The translations under genes and the position numbers were made by a program. Positions 13,488 to 20,694 of a stretch of 35,001 nt of DNA are shown here, one piece after another; positions within the stretch are counted from its first letter, which is position 1; each line of letters begins with the position of its first letter. Under the pieces are notes generated by a model that was not told the DNA's origin, made no database searches, and saw only the letters and a program-made list of their open reading frames with translations. The stretch is from Bacteroidia bacterium. Lineage in GTDB: Bacteria; Bacteroidota; Bacteroidia; UBA4408. Location of the stretch: positions 1 to 35,001 of the forward strand of contig JADLFI010000045.1 in the NCBI GenBank assembly GCA_020845635.1, in the 5' to 3' direction.

Positions 13488-14027
13488 TTACTTTATAGCC
13501 GCTTGCTTGTACAGCGGGACAGTAGAACATGGTTCGCCATACATGATGCTTTTAACAACCGGCTTAAGCAATGATGCAATATGTTGATAAGCATTAACGC
13601 CAATTTTTTTATGACTACAACCCTTAATAACTACCTTGGCGTTGGCAAATTGATTCAGCTCAATTTTATTTAATTCTTCAATCAATAATATTTCCTCCAG
13701 CATACTTTTATCACCTACAAAAACTTGTTTGGCGCATGGTGTTAATTTAATACTGATAAGCATATAAGCCCATGCAGGAATTATTGCCTCAACACTACAA
13801 AATACGGCAACGTATTTATCCTGAAACTCTTTTTCGTCAATCTGTAAAACAAAATTTCGGAATATTTTTTCACGCAAAATATAGGCCACATTTCCCGAGT
13901 TATCAATTGGCATTGATGATAGAAATGGTTTAATATCTAATGATATTATTTCGGTTTGTGGTAAATAATTCTCCAAATTAATTTCCACTAATCCGCTTTG
14001 GGCTACTTTATTAATAATTTCATCCAT
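13488..14027 (-). CDS. DUF2480 family protein, last gene of the suf operon
   Basis: This 179-residue cytoplasmic protein belongs to DUF2480, a family largely limited to Bacteroidota. Recognisable blocks are EIINKVAQSGLVEINLE at the start, KYVAVFCSVEAIIPAWAYML (about 91-110), AKVVIKGCS (129-137) and the C-terminal PVVKSIMYGEPCSTVPLYK. Three cysteines sit in those conserved blocks (FCS, KGCS, EPCS), which would suit metal or cluster binding, but no function has been shown that I know of. It follows sufT by only 10 nt, so it is almost certainly co-transcribed with the iron-sulfur assembly genes. This link to suf is the main clue to its role. Confidence 0.88.
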   Translation of the reverse strand: MDEIINKVAQSGLVEINLENYLPQTEIISLDIKPFLSSMPIDNSGNVAYILREKIFRNFVLQIDEKEFQDKYVAVFCSVEAIIPAWAYMLISIKLTPCAKQVFVGDKSMLEEILLIEELNKIELNQFANAKVVIKGCSHKKIGVNAYQHIASLLKPVVKSIMYGEPCSTVPLYKQAAIK

Positions 14028-14037
14028 GGCCTAGCTC

Positions 14038-14367
14038 CTACATAAAGCCTAACTCTAACTGTGCAACTTCACTCATCATATCTCGCTCCCAAGGTGGCTC
14101 AAAAGTTAATTCTACTTTTGAAGTTGAAACACCTTCAACACTGCCCAGTTTTTCTTCGGTTTCTGCCGGTAATGTTTCGGCAACAGGACAGTTGGGCGAT
14201 GTTAATGTCATTCGCACTAAAAGATTGTTTTCGCTATCAATTCTTATTTCATAAATCAATCCCAACTCCCAAATATCAACAGGTATTTCCGGGTCATAAA
14301 TAGTTTTTAATACATCTATTACTCGTTGGGTTAACTCTATGTTATCTGAAATGATTGTTGCTGGCAT
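14038..14367 (-). CDS. sufT: SufT-like Fe-S assembly protein (MIP18/DUF59 family)
   Basis: This 109-residue protein is an MIP18 (DUF59) domain with little else. It shows the family motifs YDPEIPVDIWELGLIYEI (24-41) and LTSPNCPVAETLP (55-67), with the reactive cysteine C60, then FEPPWERDMMS near the C-terminus. Such proteins help deliver iron-sulfur clusters to client enzymes and are regularly found at the end of suf operons. It lies 11 nt after sufE and 10 nt before the DUF2480 gene. The name sufT rests on family and position; other DUF59 proteins such as PaaD have the same fold but a different context. Confidence 0.9.
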   Translation of the reverse strand: MPATIISDNIELTQRVIDVLKTIYDPEIPVDIWELGLIYEIRIDSENNLLVRMTLTSPNCPVAETLPAETEEKLGSVEGVSTSKVELTFEPPWERDMMSEVAQLELGFM

Positions 14368-14378
14368 TTGATATAAAA

Positions 14379-14816
14379 TTATTTCGTTTCACTTGAACCT
14401 TTGCTAAGATAAGCCAAAGCATCTAATTTAATTTGTTTTATTAAGCTGGTCAATCCATTGGCACGTGTAGGACTTAAATGTTCTTTCAGTCCAATGGCGT
14501 CAATAAAATTCAAAGGGGCATTTACAATTTCTTCAGGCCTATGATTATTCAACACACGTATAACCAAGGCCGCCATTCCTTTGGTAATAATAGCATCGCT
14601 ATCGGCTCTTATGCTCATTAAAGTGCCATCAAAATATGTTTTTAACCACATTTTACTCTGGCAACCTTTAATCAATAAGTTATCGTGTTTTTCGGCATCT
14701 GAGAGTAAAGGTAATGATTTCCCCAAATCAATAATATACTCATATCTTGATTCCCAATCATCTCCAAAAATATTAAACTCATCTATTATTTCTTTCTCAT
14801 TCTCTTCTATGCTCAT
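14379..14816 (-). CDS. sufE: Sulfur acceptor protein SufE
   Basis: SufE takes the persulfide sulfur from SufS and passes it to the SufBCD scaffold. The 145-residue length is typical. The acceptor cysteine is C52 in LLIKGCQSKMWL, followed by the conserved SDAIITKGMAALVIRVL segment (about 73-89) and a C-terminal part with LSPTRANGLTSL. It follows sufS by 11 nt and precedes sufT by 11 nt. Confidence 0.95.
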   Translation of the reverse strand: MSIEENEKEIIDEFNIFGDDWESRYEYIIDLGKSLPLLSDAEKHDNLLIKGCQSKMWLKTYFDGTLMSIRADSDAIITKGMAALVIRVLNNHRPEEIVNAPLNFIDAIGLKEHLSPTRANGLTSLIKQIKLDALAYLSKGSSETK

Positions 14817-14827
14817 AACTCATTCAT

Positions 14828-16051
14828 TTAGCTTAACATTTTAATAGCTTTTTTTAAAGCTGTCACAAAAGTATCAATTTCCTCAAAGGTATTGTAAAAT
14901 GCCAATGATGCTCTTATGGTACCGGGTATCTTATAATAATCCATCAGTGGCTGGGTGCAATGATGTCCGGTACGCACAGCTACTCCATATTTATCTAATA
15001 TCATACCAACATCATAAGGGTGCAAACCTTTAACAATAAATGAAACAACAGCAGCCTTGTGTTCTGATTGCCCAATTATTTCTACTTCTTCCATTTGATG
15101 TAATTGACTTTGAGCATAATTCAACAATTCATTCTCATACTTCTCAATTTGCTCAAAACCTATTTGATTAATATAATTGATGGCTGTAGCCAGGCCAATA
15201 CCTCCGGCAATATGTGGGGTTCCGGCTTCAAATTTTAAAGGTGCAGGAGCATAAGTAACCCCCTCAAAACTTACAGTTTGAATAATACCCCCACCACTTT
15301 GATATGGTGGCATTTCATTTAGCCATTTTTCTTTAGCATATAAAACTCCTACACCTGTGGGACCAAACATTTTATGAGCACTAAAACAATAAAAATCAGC
15401 ATCCAAATCCTGTACATCAACCTTTAAATGTGGCACTGCCTGCGCCCCATCAATCAATACCGGAACATTCCTCAGGTGTGCGTTATGAATAATTTCTTTA
15501 ATAGGATTAATCGTGCCCAAAGTATTTGAAACATGCGTTATGGCAACAAGTTTGGTTCTATCAGTAATTAATTTGGTAAAATCCTCAACCTTAATTTCTC
15601 CTGCTTTATTTATTGGCACTACCTTCAAACTAGCGCCTCTGTCTTCGCATAGCTGCATCCACGGAAGTATGTTTGAGTGATGCTCCATAGCCGATATCAT
15701 AACTTCATCTCCGGCTTTTACAAATCTTTTTCCGAACGAATAGGCCACAAGATTTATCGAATCGGTTGTTCCTTTAGTGAAAACTATTTCGTGAGAAAAA
15801 GCAGCATTAACAAAATGTTGTACAGTTACTCTTGCTTGCTCATAAGCCTCAGTAATTTGGCGGCTCAAGGTGTGAACTCCTCTATGAATATTGGAGTTTT
15901 TATTCGTATAATACTCTTGTATGGAATTAATTACAACCTTTGGCTTATGGGCTGTAGCTCCATTATCAAAATAAATAAGATTGTGTTTGTTTACTTTCTG
16001 TTCTAGTGTCGGAAAGTCTTTACGTATATCTATTGGATTAAAAATTGCCAT
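14828..16051 (-). CDS. sufS: Cysteine desulfurase SufS
   Basis: SufS is a PLP enzyme that removes sulfur from cysteine, giving alanine and an enzyme-bound persulfide for SufE. At 407 residues it has the expected length. Visible residues are EHHSNILPW (123-131, with the PLP-stacking His), D201 in DGAQ, the Schiff-base lysine K227 in FSAHKMFGPTG, and the active cysteine C365 in RTGHHCTQPLM. The RxGHHC form, with a short active-site loop, is the SufS (group II) type rather than IscS. It sits between sufD and sufE. Confidence 0.97.
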   Translation of the reverse strand: MAIFNPIDIRKDFPTLEQKVNKHNLIYFDNGATAHKPKVVINSIQEYYTNKNSNIHRGVHTLSRQITEAYEQARVTVQHFVNAAFSHEIVFTKGTTDSINLVAYSFGKRFVKAGDEVMISAMEHHSNILPWMQLCEDRGASLKVVPINKAGEIKVEDFTKLITDRTKLVAITHVSNTLGTINPIKEIIHNAHLRNVPVLIDGAQAVPHLKVDVQDLDADFYCFSAHKMFGPTGVGVLYAKEKWLNEMPPYQSGGGIIQTVSFEGVTYAPAPLKFEAGTPHIAGGIGLATAINYINQIGFEQIEKYENELLNYAQSQLHQMEEVEIIGQSEHKAAVVSFIVKGLHPYDVGMILDKYGVAVRTGHHCTQPLMDYYKIPGTIRASLAFYNTFEEIDTFVTALKKAIKMLS

Positions 16052-16072: not shown

Positions 16073-17383
16073 TTAGTTCAGGCTATTCTCTATTAGTTCT
16101 TCCAGATAATGACGATAAGGTTCAATTTTTACGGTATTGATAACATCAAGAGCAAAAGCGTACATCAATAGCTTTCTGGCTGAGTCTTCTGATAATCCGC
16201 GGGCACGAAGATAAAATAAAGCATTTGTATCAATTTGTCCTGTTGATGAACCATGTGAGCATTTTACATCATCAGCATAAATTTCTAATTGTGGTTTGGT
16301 GTTCATACTTGCATCGTCACTCAGCAACATACTTTTTGAAGATTGGTAAGCATTGGTTTTCTGAGCATCTTTACGTACATATATTTTTCCGTTAAACACA
16401 CCTGAACTTTTATCTGATAAGATTCCTTTATACAACTGATTACTCTCGCAATGCGGGTTTTGGTGATCTACCAAAGTATGATTATCCAAATGCTGTTGAC
16501 CTTTCAAAACAAACAATCCGTTTAAATGCGATTCGCAATTAATACCATTCATCAATATATTCAAATTATTTCGCCCCCATTTTCCTCCTAGCGAAACAGT
16601 GTTGGTATCAAATAAACTTTGTTTATCCTGAACTGCATGAGTAGTATTTATATGTATTGCGTTTTCATTTTCGTTTTGCAACTTATAATAATTAACGATT
16701 CCTTGCTCCTTGACAAAAATCTCTGCTAAGGAGTTTAATATATATTGGTTGCTGTTGGTTTGAGAATAAAAATCTTCAATAATATCAATAGAGCATAGTG
16801 TTTCGGCAATTATTAAATGGTGGGTCTGAAAAAAATGATTGTCGGTTCCGGTGCTAATGTTATGAATAAATAAGGGTTTATCTAATTTTGCCCTATCTTT
16901 TAAATAAACAAACAAACCCTTAGAAGCTAAGGCAATGTTTAGTTGTGCAAAAGCATCATTAAACTTAGCCACAGAGCTTCCGTAATATTGATTAAATATT
17001 TTATCATATTTCTCGGCAGCAGTTTTAAGATCACAAACTTCAACCTTGTTGTTTTCAATCTTATCTGACTCGGTAGAAATTAATTCTCCGTTGGCCAAAA
17101 AAATATGATAAGCATCAATATTTTTTTGCTTGTATTTATTAAAATCAACCTTGCTAATATCGTCATCAGCATGAGCCAAGTTTATTCCTTCCTTAAATAA
17201 TTTAGAGGTATCAGAATATTTATACTCTTCATTTGACCTCAACGGAAAACCCAATTTGGTAAATTGCTCAATAGCTTTTCTCCTTATTTCTTGAACATTA
17301 TTCCCACCGGGTAATTGACTCAGCCTTTCGGTAAAAACCTCAGAAATAAGTTGAACATTATTTATTGTTGATATTGTATTCAT
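16073..17383 (-). CDS. sufD: Fe-S scaffold component SufD
   Basis: SufD pairs with SufB and the ATPase SufC to build iron-sulfur clusters. The 436-residue protein has the N-terminal helical part (INNVQLISEVFTERLSQLPG) and then the long beta-helix of the SufB/SufD family. The C-terminal block is DVKCSHGSSTGQIDTNALFY, whose histidine corresponds to the essential His of SufD, followed by ARGLSEDSARKLLMYAFA. I chose the ATG at 17381-17383. A longer frame starting at 17458 would overlap sufC and add a run of basic residues that the family lacks. With this start the gap to sufC is 16 nt. Confidence 0.95.
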   Translation of the reverse strand: MNTISTINNVQLISEVFTERLSQLPGGNNVQEIRRKAIEQFTKLGFPLRSNEEYKYSDTSKLFKEGINLAHADDDISKVDFNKYKQKNIDAYHIFLANGELISTESDKIENNKVEVCDLKTAAEKYDKIFNQYYGSSVAKFNDAFAQLNIALASKGLFVYLKDRAKLDKPLFIHNISTGTDNHFFQTHHLIIAETLCSIDIIEDFYSQTNSNQYILNSLAEIFVKEQGIVNYYKLQNENENAIHINTTHAVQDKQSLFDTNTVSLGGKWGRNNLNILMNGINCESHLNGLFVLKGQQHLDNHTLVDHQNPHCESNQLYKGILSDKSSGVFNGKIYVRKDAQKTNAYQSSKSMLLSDDASMNTKPQLEIYADDVKCSHGSSTGQIDTNALFYLRARGLSEDSARKLLMYAFALDVINTVKIEPYRHYLEELIENSLN

Positions 17384-17399
17384 TATACTAATTCTTGAT

Positions 17400-18158
17400 T
17401 TAAATAACTTGCTCCTCTTCTTTCTTAATCCAGTCGTATCCTTTTTCTTCCAACTCAAGCGCTAGTTCTTTTGGTCCCGACTTAACAATTTGACCATTAT
17501 ACATTACGTGAACAAAATCAGGAACAATATAATCTAACAAGCGTTGGTAGTGTGTAATAACTACAAATGAACGGTTTTTATCTCTCAACTTATTTACACC
17601 ATTGGCCACTATACGCAAGGCATCAATATCTAATCCACTGTCGGTTTCGTCAAGTATAGCTAAACTAGGCTCTAACATAGCCATCTGAAAAATTTCATTG
17701 CGTTTCTTTTCCCCACCACTAAAACCTTCATTCACGCTTCGGTTGGCCAGGCTGCCTTGTAGCTCAACCAGAGCTTGTTTTTCTTTAACCATTTTCAAAA
17801 AATCTTTAGCTTCAATTGGAGGTAAGCCTTTGTAGGCGCGTATTTCAGATAAACATGTTTTTAAGAAATTAATATTACTTACCCCGGGAATTTCAACAGG
17901 ATATTGAAAAGCTAGAAACAATCCCTCTCTGGCTCTGTCCTCGGGCGACATATCCAACAAATCTTTTCCATTAAATGTAACTGAACCATCAGTTACTGTA
18001 TAATCTTCTTTTCCGGCAAGAACATTAGCTAAGGTGCTTTTACCTGAGCCATTGGGTCCCATAATGGCATGCACTTCTCCGGGTTTTACGTTGAGGTTAA
18101 ACCCTTTTAAAATTTCTTTATCTCCAATGCCTGCTTTTAAATTATTTATTGATATCAT
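17400..18158 (-). CDS. sufC: Fe-S assembly ATPase SufC
   Basis: SufC is the soluble ABC-type ATPase that drives conformational changes in SufBCD. The 252-residue protein shows Walker A GPNGSGKST (34-42), the Q-loop region FQYPVEIPG (84-92), the signature FSGGEKKR (146-153), Walker B LAILDETDSGLD (167-178) and the switch histidine H203. The ETDSGLD form, with acidic residues after Walker B, is specific to SufC among ABC ATPases. It follows sufB by 61 nt, the widest gap in the operon. Confidence 0.97.
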   Translation of the reverse strand: MISINNLKAGIGDKEILKGFNLNVKPGEVHAIMGPNGSGKSTLANVLAGKEDYTVTDGSVTFNGKDLLDMSPEDRAREGLFLAFQYPVEIPGVSNINFLKTCLSEIRAYKGLPPIEAKDFLKMVKEKQALVELQGSLANRSVNEGFSGGEKKRNEIFQMAMLEPSLAILDETDSGLDIDALRIVANGVNKLRDKNRSFVVITHYQRLLDYIVPDFVHVMYNGQIVKSGPKELALELEEKGYDWIKKEEEQVI

Positions 18159-18219: not shown

Positions 18220-19671
18220 TTATCCCACACTGCCCTCTAAACTAACCGCTAATAACTTTTGTGCTTCAACCGCAAATTCCATGGGTAATTTATTAAGTAC
18301 CTCTTTGCAATAGCCATTAACAATAAGAGCTACTGCTTTCTCGGTGTCTAACCCCCTTTGTTTGCAATAAAATAATTGATCTTCGCCAATCTTAGAGGTA
18401 GTGGCCTCGTGCTCAACAATAGCCGACTTATCTTTTATCTCAATATATGGAAAGGTGTGAGCTCCACATTTATCACCCATCAACAAACTGTCGCACTGCG
18501 AAAAGTTACGGGCATTTTTAGCTCCTTTTCCTATTCTAACCAAACCACGATAGCTATTATTACTAAATCCGGCCGAAATTCCTTTTGAGACTATTGTGCT
18601 ACGAGTATTACTACCTAAATGAATCATTTTAGTCCCTGTATCGGCTTGTTGGTAATTGTTGGTAACTGCTACCGAGTAAAACTCGCCAACTGAGTTATTG
18701 CCTTTTAAAATAACCGAGGGATACTTCCAGGTTATTGCTGAGCCTGTTTCCACCTGCGTCCATGATAATTTTGAGTTATCGCCAAAACAAATGCCACGCT
18801 TGGTAACAAAGTTATATACACCACCTTTCCCATCCTTATCGCCAGGATACCAGTTTTGTACTGTGCTATATTTTATTTCGGCATTTTCATGAACTATAAT
18901 TTCTACCACTGCGGCATGCAACTGATTTTCATCGCGCGAAGGGGCCGTACATCCTTCCAAATAACTGGCGTATCCGCCTTCATCTGCAATAATTAAGGTT
19001 CGTTCAAACTGCCCTGTTCCTGAAGTATTAATCCTAAAATAGGTACTTAATTCCATTGGGCATCTTACCCCTTTCGGAATATAACAAAATGAACCATCGG
19101 TAAATACTGCCGAGTTTAAAGCAGCATAATAATTATCAGTATATGGTACAACCGAGCCCATGTATTTCTTTACCAATTCAGGATGTTCATGAACTGCTTC
19201 ACTGAATGAACAGAAAATAATTCCTTTTTCGGCAAGTACCTCCTTAAAAGTGGTTTTTACCGAAACGCTATCAATTACCGCATCAACAGCAATGGTAGAT
19301 TCAACCCCACTTAATCTTTTTTGTTCTTCAAGTGAAATACCCAACTTCTCAAAAGTCTTCAACAACTCCGGATCTACCTCATCTAAACTGTTTAGTTTCT
19401 TTTTGGGCTTAGGTGCAGCATAATAAATGATATCCTGAAAATCAATTTTAGGATAATTCAAATGCGCCCAATGCTTTGGTTCTTCCATAGTTTGCCACTT
19501 TCTAAAAGCCTGCAACCTAAATTCAAGCATCCAATCGGGTTCGTTCTTTTTTTGGGAAATAAATCTGATTATATCTTCTGATAGGCCTTTAGGGGCGGTT
19601 TCCATTTCTATATTGGAGGTAAAACCATATTTATATTCGCTACTGGTTATCTCCTCTAAAATATCTGACAT
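18220..19671 (-). CDS. sufB: Fe-S scaffold component SufB
   Basis: SufB is the core scaffold on which clusters are assembled within SufBC2D. At 483 residues it has normal length. Family blocks include [20 protein letters not shown] (139-158), the [17 protein letters not shown] segment (197-213), [20 protein letters not shown] (231-250) and [21 protein letters not shown]393 in QCDS matches the catalytic cysteine that receives sulfur from SufE. The sequence is well conserved throughout and shows no break. It is 33 nt downstream of sufA. Confidence 0.97.
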
Positions 19672-19704: not shown

Positions 19705-20031
19705 TTATACTGCAAAGCTCTCTCCACAGCCACAGGTACGCGATGCATTTGGATTAACAAACACAAAACCTTTTCCGTTTAAACCTCCCGAATAATCAAG
19801 CTCTGTACCTACTAAATATAAAAAACTTTTTTTGTCAACTACTATTTTTATACCCTTATCTTCAAATTGCATATCTCCTTCGTTCAGTTTATTATCAAAC
19901 TCTAACTTGTACGATAATCCCGAACAACCACCGCCTTCTACTCCTACTCTGATAAATGAATCTGCGGGTCTTTTTTCTTCTTTAATTAAAAATAAAGCGC
20001 GCTCCTTGGCATTTTCTGATACTGTAATCAT
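19705..20031 (-). CDS. sufA: A-type Fe-S carrier protein (SufA/IscA/HesB family)
   Basis: This 108-residue carrier accepts a cluster from SufBCD and passes it to target proteins. The three cluster-binding cysteines are present: C36 in GGGCSGLSY, and C100 and C102 in the C-terminal RTCGCGESF. It is the first gene of the suf operon. A strong promoter and a palindrome lie just upstream. The symbol sufA is chosen from position; by sequence alone IscA or ErpA would fit as well. Confidence 0.93.
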   Translation of the reverse strand: MITVSENAKERALFLIKEEKRPADSFIRVGVEGGGCSGLSYKLEFDNKLNEGDMQFEDKGIKIVVDKKSFLYLVGTELDYSGGLNGKGFVFVNPNASRTCGCGESFAV

Positions 20032-20071
20032 TACAAATCATTAATTTTCTGTTTTTTAGATATACTTTGCT

Positions 20072-20090
20072 ATTTAGAATCAATCTAAAT
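20072..20090. promoter_or_regulatory. Palindromic operator candidate at the suf promoter
   Basis: ATTTAGAATCAATCTAAAT is a perfect 7 bp inverted repeat with a 5 bp centre. It lies just downstream of the suf -7 box, across the predicted transcription start, where a bound repressor would block transcription. The inner TTAGAAT-C-AATCTAA has one mismatch from a 7-1-7 inverted repeat of the Fur/PerR type. The regulator is not identified in this window; an iron- or peroxide-sensing protein is an inference. Confidence 0.55.
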
Positions 20091-20096
20091 TTAGTG

Positions 20097-20128
20097 CAAA
20101 TCTACCATAAAAAAGGTATTGGTGCAAA
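20097..20128 (-). promoter_or_regulatory. Promoter of the suf operon
   Basis: On the minus strand, TTTG (20128-20125) is followed after exactly 20 bp by TAGATTTG (20104-20097), a full match to the Bacteroidetes consensus. The start of transcription should be near 20090, leaving a leader of about 60 nt before sufA. Confidence 0.8.
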
Positions 20129-20283: not shown

Positions 20284-20694
20284 ATGAACTATTGGTTAAT
20301 TAAATCTGAACCTTATAAATACAGTTGGGAAAACTTTGAAGCAGACAAAAAAACAATATGGGATGGTGTTCGTAACTATGCGGCCAGAAACAATTTGAAA
20401 GCCATGAAAAAAAATGATCTGGCGTTTTTTTATCACAGCAATGAAGGGATGGAAATAGTAGGTATTGCAAAGGTTGTAAAAGAATTTTACAAAGATCCTA
20501 CCAGTAAGGACGACACATGGGTATGCGTTGAGTTTGCCCCCTATAAAAAATTAAAACGACCGGTAAGCTTAGCCGAAATAAAAGCCGATGAAATATTACA
20601 AAATATGGATTTGGTTAGGTTGTCACGTTTATCGGTGGGTTCGGTTAAACCTTTTGAATTTGACCGTATATTAGCGCTTTCCGAACTAAAATAG
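20284..20694 (+). CDS. EVE domain-containing protein (THYN1-like)
   Basis: This 136-residue cytoplasmic protein is a single EVE domain. It begins NYWLIKSEPYKYSWENF, the hallmark of the family, followed by WDGVRNYAARNNLKAMKKND (25-44), LAFFYHSNEGMEIVGIAKV and a closing LSRLSVGSVKPFEFDRIL. EVE domains are related to PUA and YTH folds and are thought to bind modified bases in DNA or RNA; the ligand here is not known. In this compact form it is common in chromosomes with no link to defence genes. It stands alone, with its own promoter, divergent from suf. Confidence 0.93.
   Translation: MNYWLIKSEPYKYSWENFEADKKTIWDGVRNYAARNNLKAMKKNDLAFFYHSNEGMEIVGIAKVVKEFYKDPTSKDDTWVCVEFAPYKKLKRPVSLAEIKADEILQNMDLVRLSRLSVGSVKPFEFDRILALSELK

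Follow-up and report, generated by a model that had tools for sequence, protein, structure and literature searches.

The window, by which we mean the whole stretch of 35,001 nucleotides that was analysed, carries on its minus strand one run of genes in the order sufA-sufB-sufC-sufD-sufS-sufE-(FeS_assembly_P)-DUF2480, in which the suf genes were confirmed by Pfam. Upstream of sufA, on the minus strand, TTTG (20128–20125) is followed by a 20-bp spacer, TAGATTTG (20104–20097), the 6 bp CACTAA and the palindrome ATTTAGATTGATTCTAAAT (20090–20072). The palindrome, ATTTAGA-ATCAA-TCTAAAT, has perfect 7-bp arms around 5 bp and is located 40 bp from the sufA ATG. The features of the region are as follows:

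13488–14027, minus strand: DUF2480 gene, last of the run (Pfam)
14038–14367, minus strand: FeS_assembly_P (SufT-like) gene (Pfam)
14379–14816, minus strand: sufE (Pfam)
14828–16051, minus strand: sufS, class-V aminotransferase family (Pfam), cysteine desulfurase by position
16073–17458, minus strand: sufD (Pfam)
17400–18158, minus strand: sufC (Pfam)
18220–19671, minus strand: sufB (Pfam)
19705–20031, minus strand: sufA-like carrier (Fe-S_biosyn), with which the run begins (Pfam)
20069–20093, minus strand: 25 bp that match the suf-promoter motif in its extended form, with a PWM score of 20.4
20072–20090, minus strand: predicted Fur box, ATTTAGATTGATTCTAAAT in the direction of suf; lies over the expected transcription start, is conserved in relatives and is near the Riemerella box
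20097–20104, minus strand: -7 promoter element TAGATTTG, by the consensus
20102–20119, no strand assigned: putative second operator ATACC-TTTTTTAT-GGTAG (minus-strand reading), which is located within the promoter spacer and overlaps the -7 element
20125–20128, minus strand: TTTG, the -33 element of the promoter, separated by 20 bp from the -7 element
20284–20694, plus strand: divergent EVE-domain gene (Pfam); nothing ties the site to its control

The -33/-7 promoter elements of this group are mentioned in a 2017 study of Riemerella anatipestifer (PMC5609570). The initial annotation had described a consensus promoter followed at once by a perfect palindrome over the suf start; the promoter and the palindrome are indeed present, with the letters as described, but CACTAA lies between them. 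Its remark that the inner part is one change from a 7-1-7 inverted repeat is also correct, the inner 15-mer being TTAGAATCAATCTAA and the repeat TTAGAATNATTCTAA. What it had overlooked is the putative second operator in the spacer of the promoter, ATACC-N8-GGTAG. In 23 of the 32 window ORFs of at least 80 aa, Pfam matched no DNA-binding regulator family (the nine ORFs outside the scan lie mostly or wholly over larger ORFs), which agrees with the earlier statement that the window has no IscR- or SufR-type regulator gene. Comparison of the suf region with plasmids gave no match.

Conservation of the palindrome in suf promoters

As a bare palindrome, the site is ordinary by chance; when the 252-bp intergenic sequence was shuffled 2000 times, 778 of the shuffles contained perfect 7-bp arms with a 3–8 bp loop. 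It is conservation that lifts the site above chance. The 19-mer with exact arms occurs at one place in the 3.05-Mb genome, at suf, with 0.15 expected from base composition. When two mismatches were allowed, the counts in the same genome were not above those of the reversed control (56 versus 85 and 65 versus 68); therefore, the follow-up was restricted to sites that have a high PWM score or no more than one mismatch.

Using SufB, we fetched 80 suf loci, nearly all of which belong to Bacteroidota by record title. The motif CTTATTTAGAATTAATCTAAATAAG, grown from the suf upstream regions, is present at a score above 9 in 48 of the 80, compared to 7 of 400 shuffled regions. Scanning of the whole loci with the 25-bp motif at a score of at least 17 identified 46 places in 44 of the 80 loci; all 46 lie 30–461 bp before sufB, none was found elsewhere in the 666,566 bases or in three shuffles, and the scan is circular, as the PWM was trained on the same suf promoters. 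In the loci of Roseivirga thermotolerans (L031) and Parachryseolinea silvisoli (L088), the motif before suf scores 24.0 and 25.8, respectively. Because of this training, the search of 100 genomes (our own and 99 relatives) with a fixed pattern is the more independent test. The pattern ATTTAGANTNANTCTAAAT was found at 49 places in 35 of the 100 genomes, whereas the reversed control was found in none of the 100. All three genus mates that were examined (G051–G053) carry the ATTTAGANTNANTCTAAAT pattern before suf. The initial annotation had stated that absence from the suf promoters of close relatives, or random occurrence in the genome, would refute its reading of the site; neither was observed, although the motif does not reach a score of 17 in 36 of the 80 suf loci.

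Overlap with the core promoter, as expected of a Fur box, was found. The box starts 1–18 bp after TTTG in 24 distinct dyad-bearing suf promoters, and 6 bp after it here. The two halves of the box are not equally conserved in the suf promoters (L016–L095); despite the palindrome, the gene-proximal half TCTAAATAA is better conserved than the distal half, and at one paired position the frequency is 0.89 for C on the gene side versus 0.51 for G on the far side.

Genes behind other copies of the box

Of the 48 ATTTAGANTNANTCTAAAT places outside our own genome, 16 are at suf and 32 are elsewhere; the Pfam scan covered all of the latter but L242 and L254, the L254 site being inside an ORF. The genes behind the non-suf copies include FeoA or FeoAB (L221, L247, L248 and L255), HmuY-like proteins (L216, L224 and L253), a heme oxygenase (L217), TonB receptors (L220, L256 and L260), multiheme cytochromes (L227, L228, L237, L238, L257, L259 and L261), LuxR-type regulators (L219, L222, L235, L236 and L251) and DUF4856 (L218 and L250). 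Others are a HicA-like ORF (L215), a type 9 secretion plug protein (L243), a SPOR protein (L249) and DUF7793 (L241); the gene at L226 matched no Pfam family.

In our own genome, Fur-box-like sites are few and their gene content is mixed. In the parts that were examined, copies scoring above 20 are located at suf and on contigs C12, C34, C44, C39 and C18. The C12 copy precedes an operon of HmuY, chelatase-like, PepSY-like (by eye), TonB-receptor and HmuY genes; the C34 copy precedes an operon of GltD-like and 2-oxoacid:ferredoxin oxidoreductase genes; the C44 copy precedes a methyltransferase and RIC Fe-S repair operon; the C39 copy precedes a cytochrome-oxidase operon and the C18 copy a transhydrogenase-like gene (by eye). 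Taken together, these copies look like an iron and iron-cofactor regulon. A Fur-box motif is expected at iron and heme uptake genes, and it was found there both in the relatives and at the HmuY/TonB operon of our own genome.

The inner repeat TTAGAATNATTCTAA occurs exactly at four places in our own genome, two of which look irrelevant: C42:129150, which is inside a gene, and C42:150860. The latter (G000:C42:150860–150874, L099 1501–1515) lies within GCGTGTTAGAATAATTCTAATACGC followed by a T run, which points to an intrinsic terminator rather than to an operator. With one mismatch, TTAGAATNATTCTAA occurs at six places, and those on C4, C15 and C48 have PWM scores below 13.

Two neighborhoods of the own-genome copies were also inspected. 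On C44 (L118 7114–10407), Rrf2, RIC Fe-S repair, methyltransferase and hemerythrin genes surround the Fur-box-like site, which directly follows a TACATTTG element; a further ORF is hemerythrin-like by eye, and the gene group has the look of an island for nitrosative or Fe-S repair. Beside the box and dyad of the HmuY operon, a pirin gene (L119 4165–4884) is divergently oriented.

Candidate regulators of the suf promoter

One FUR-family protein was found in our own genome, encoded on contig C34 (66932–67288, minus strand). It has Fur-type residues, with Glu in VLEF, and passes no NCBIfam cut-off; against solved structures, its best two matches are Fur proteins and its third is a PerR, close in score. 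The recognition helix reads [VI]S[RKI]AT[LV]YN in 46 of 47 FUR proteins, these being the loci with a readable protein among 61 FUR loci. The regulator profile covers 50 of our 80 suf loci, selected by us so that half of them (25) have the motif and half (25) do not. Strong FUR matches (E ≤ 1e-20, a threshold set after the hits were seen) are present in 23 of the 25 genomes with the suf motif versus 14 of the 25 without (P = 0.008); as the profiled genomes are related, this and the following P values are indicative. Counting any FUR match, the groups are not separated (24/25 versus 20/25, P = 0.19); this, and the 14 strong-FUR genomes without the motif at suf, count against the Fur reading.

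A further FUR search covered 38 genomes: 20 with composite suf promoters, 8 others with the exact box and 10 without it. Strong FUR is present in 19, 8 and 7 of these, respectively. Genomes that bear the box encode a Fur protein, with three exceptions that likewise count against it: no FUR match was found in G004 (1.9 Mb, with the motif) or in G085 (99% complete, with the exact box at suf), and the match in G015, which has the motif, is weak (3.8e-13).

We weighed four other readings of the site. In many proteobacteria, isc and suf promoters are bound by an IscR-like Rrf2 regulator, and the same could be assumed here, since our own genome encodes, on contigs C44, C26 and C39, three Rrf2 proteins with three cysteines (CX6CX5C), one of whose genes lies 2.2 kb from the motif copy beside the Fe-S repair gene. 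However, Rrf2 does not track the motif, being over the cut-off in 18 of the 25 genomes with the motif versus 17 of the 25 without. No Rrf2 match at all was found in 7 of the 25 motif genomes; of the 20 composite genomes, 10 have Rrf2 over the cut-off and 9 have no match. The composite genomes that lack Rrf2 include a genus mate of 97% completeness and six others of 99–100% completeness, with FUR, and relatives of our own three Rrf2 proteins were found within none of the 80 suf loci. As a general explanation Rrf2 is largely refuted, and for this site we regard it as very unlikely. Given the absence of Rrf2 from many composite genomes and the strong FUR in 19 of 20, Rrf2 does not qualify as a general regulator, and the strongest candidate is Fur.

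The site might also be a PerR box, in which case suf would answer to peroxide. The 7-1-7 core is equally near to the PerR and Fur consensus sequences, and Bacillus subtilis PerR, the third solved-structure match of the FUR protein, scores 75.2 bits versus 76.9 bits for the first Fur. However, at the position of Asp104, the sensing residue of B. subtilis PerR, the only FUR-family protein found has Glu, not Asp (in HDHLICVDCGRVLEF), and many other copies of the box precede iron and heme uptake genes. A PerR box is therefore highly improbable.

We see hardly any room for an operator of the DtxR/MntR family. The TTAG...CTAA arms do resemble DtxR-type operators, and our own genome encodes one DtxR-family protein; however, that protein is best matched by the MntR model, below its cut-off, its gene is beside an Nramp-like gene (by eye), and the 18 kb around it contain no motif at a score of at least 13. 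DtxR-family members are present in 17 of the 25 motif genomes versus 11 of the 25 without (P = 0.15), and thus absent from 8 motif genomes.

The last reading, in which the palindrome would form a hairpin where the suf mRNA begins, is refuted by comparison of 46 sites. These are the site of the window and 45 of the 48 motif rows, a duplicate and the two rows with the lowest scores having been set aside. Although the palindrome arms pair in the predicted RNA fold, there are no compensatory changes among the 46, paired cells reach 78.9%, below the 80.6% of shuffled sequence, and 25 sites have a broken G-C pair. The folding energy is like that of shuffled sequence (z = −0.08).

Comparison with known Fur boxes and suf regulation

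In R. anatipestifer, the Fur box was derived as ATTTAGAATTATTCTAAAT, 19 bp in length, and purified Fur gave gel shifts on four promoters, including hmuR and sprT; the sprT box fits the consensus poorly, and the abstract does not give the sequence so derived but GATAATGATAATCATTATC, which is the E. coli consensus (PMC5609570). According to a 2024 study (PMC10986502), Fur binds in an Fe2+-dependent manner to the rhuB promoter, which contains ATTTAGAATTATCCTAAAT, and RhuB is higher in the fur mutant. The palindrome at suf is thus one symmetric base away from a Fur box that has experimental support within the phylum; ATTTAGAATTATTCTAAAT and ATTTAGAATCAATCTAAAT differ at one symmetric position and at the free central base. 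In both Riemerella and the relatives of our own genome, the box is found at iron and heme uptake genes.

Two observations on Riemerella count against Fur at suf. The Fur-box table of PMC5609570 has no suf gene, and low iron induces Riemerella suf equally with and without fur, the SufB values being 1.87 in the wild type and 1.85 in the mutant. In the table with these SufB values, a four helix bundle protein stands between the SufA and SufB locus tags. In some relatives of our own genome we also observed small genes between sufA and sufB, at L276 (1915–2582), L277 (1922–2317) and L285 (minus strand, 1971–2420); by eye, these are four-helix-bundle-like or nucleotidyltransferase-like.

In E. coli, Fur represses suf at plentiful iron, and IscR, OxyR and IHF add to the control. 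The Fur repression is the same as proposed here. Different from E. coli, Rrf2 is dispensable across the relatives studied here, and the second operator is of another sequence. Work by Outten from 2004 is said to deal with Fur control of the E. coli suf operon. The TNNNAATNATTNNNA skeleton is common to our site and to the Gram-positive Fur/PerR 7-1-7 boxes; however, the arms here have AGA, not GAT or TAT, and the suf version has one off-symmetry base. SufR operators consist of CAAC-N6-GTTG repeats, from which the sequence of the suf site differs by eye. Judged by titles and the beginnings of abstracts, we recognised no report of a Fur box at suf in Bacteroidota.

A second dyad in the promoter spacer

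ATACC-TTTTTTAT-GGTAG fills the promoter spacer and overlaps the -7 element (20102–20119). Among 97 suf promoters, a perfect ATACC-N(5–11)-GGTAT was found in 10 and a version with one change in 12, compared to 0.3 and 4.8 expected from shuffles. In the 100 genomes, ATACC-N8-GGTA-NN-TTTG is not enriched, with 34 places versus 40 for the reversed control by our count; the signal comes from the 21 of the 34 places that are at suf. All 21 have a Fur-box match (score of at least 18.5) just downstream, whereas none of the 13 non-suf places has one.

Of the 48 boxes in relatives, 13 have the core TACC-N8-GGTA at a distance of no more than 60 bp, versus 4 of 769 background windows. It accompanies 8 of the 16 boxes at suf and 5 of the 32 at other places (two at HmuY, and one each at a TonB receptor, a LuxR-type regulator and L241). 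At the C12 HmuY operon of our own genome, the dyad precedes the box and lies apart from the -7 element, so it is not just promoter sequence; the four other own-genome box sites tested are without the dyad. At L224 (about 1480–1540, HmuY gene) and L241 (about 1480–1540, near the DUF7793 gene), the arrangement is dyad-box-dyad, with TACC-N8-GGTA on both sides of the Fur box.

A conserved dyad beside the box implies a further regulator on the same promoter, and Rrf2 is excluded as the general answer. A MerR-type reading was dropped, since 20 bp is the ordinary promoter spacing in Bacteroidota. The 7-2-7 layout of the dyad resembles that of NarL/LuxR-type sites, and the LuxR-type genes directly behind Fur boxes in relatives are candidates for the second regulator. 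These LuxR/GerE-type genes (L219, L222, L235 and L236, site at 1501, and L251, site at 1993) start 4–13 bp behind an exact box; they share 30–53% mutual identity over the aligned parts, and one is just an HTH of 73 aa.

Proposed control of the suf operon

The palindrome is very probably a Bacteroidota-type Fur box over the predicted transcription start of the sufABCDSE operon. The initial annotation had read it as a repressor site, Fur/PerR-like, that would link suf to iron or peroxide. Conservation, the genes behind the other copies, the regulator profile and the Riemerella box support the repressor site, the Fur-type 7-1-7 repeat and the link to iron, and it is from these that we infer Fur binding and repression at suf; the PerR and peroxide part is not supported, given the Glu at the sensing position. 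When iron is sufficient, Fe(II)-bound Fur would occupy 20072–20090 and block RNA polymerase at the TTTG-N20-TAnnTTTG promoter by hiding the predicted start site; when iron is scarce, Fur would leave and suf would be made. Binding by this Fur at this site, repression, iron as the signal and the position of the transcription start are all predicted in this scheme.

A more tentative idea, which we hold to be possible rather than probable, is that many Bacteroidota suf promoters are two-input switches, with Fur on the palindrome and a so far undescribed regulator of the iron regulon on ATACC-N8-GGTAT in the spacer. As the -7 element is covered by its site, this second regulator may act as a repressor; alternatively, it may tune the promoter. 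Such a regulator could account for the iron response that Riemerella suf retains without fur.

If the Fur reading is correct, Bacteroidota without IscR-type proteins could control their Fe-S cluster machinery through Fur, by a site that can be recognised in the sequence of roughly half of our suf loci. The analysis also exposed a second conserved operator on the same promoters as the Fur box; if the LuxR-type candidates hold true, the two would be joined in a Fur-to-regulator cascade.
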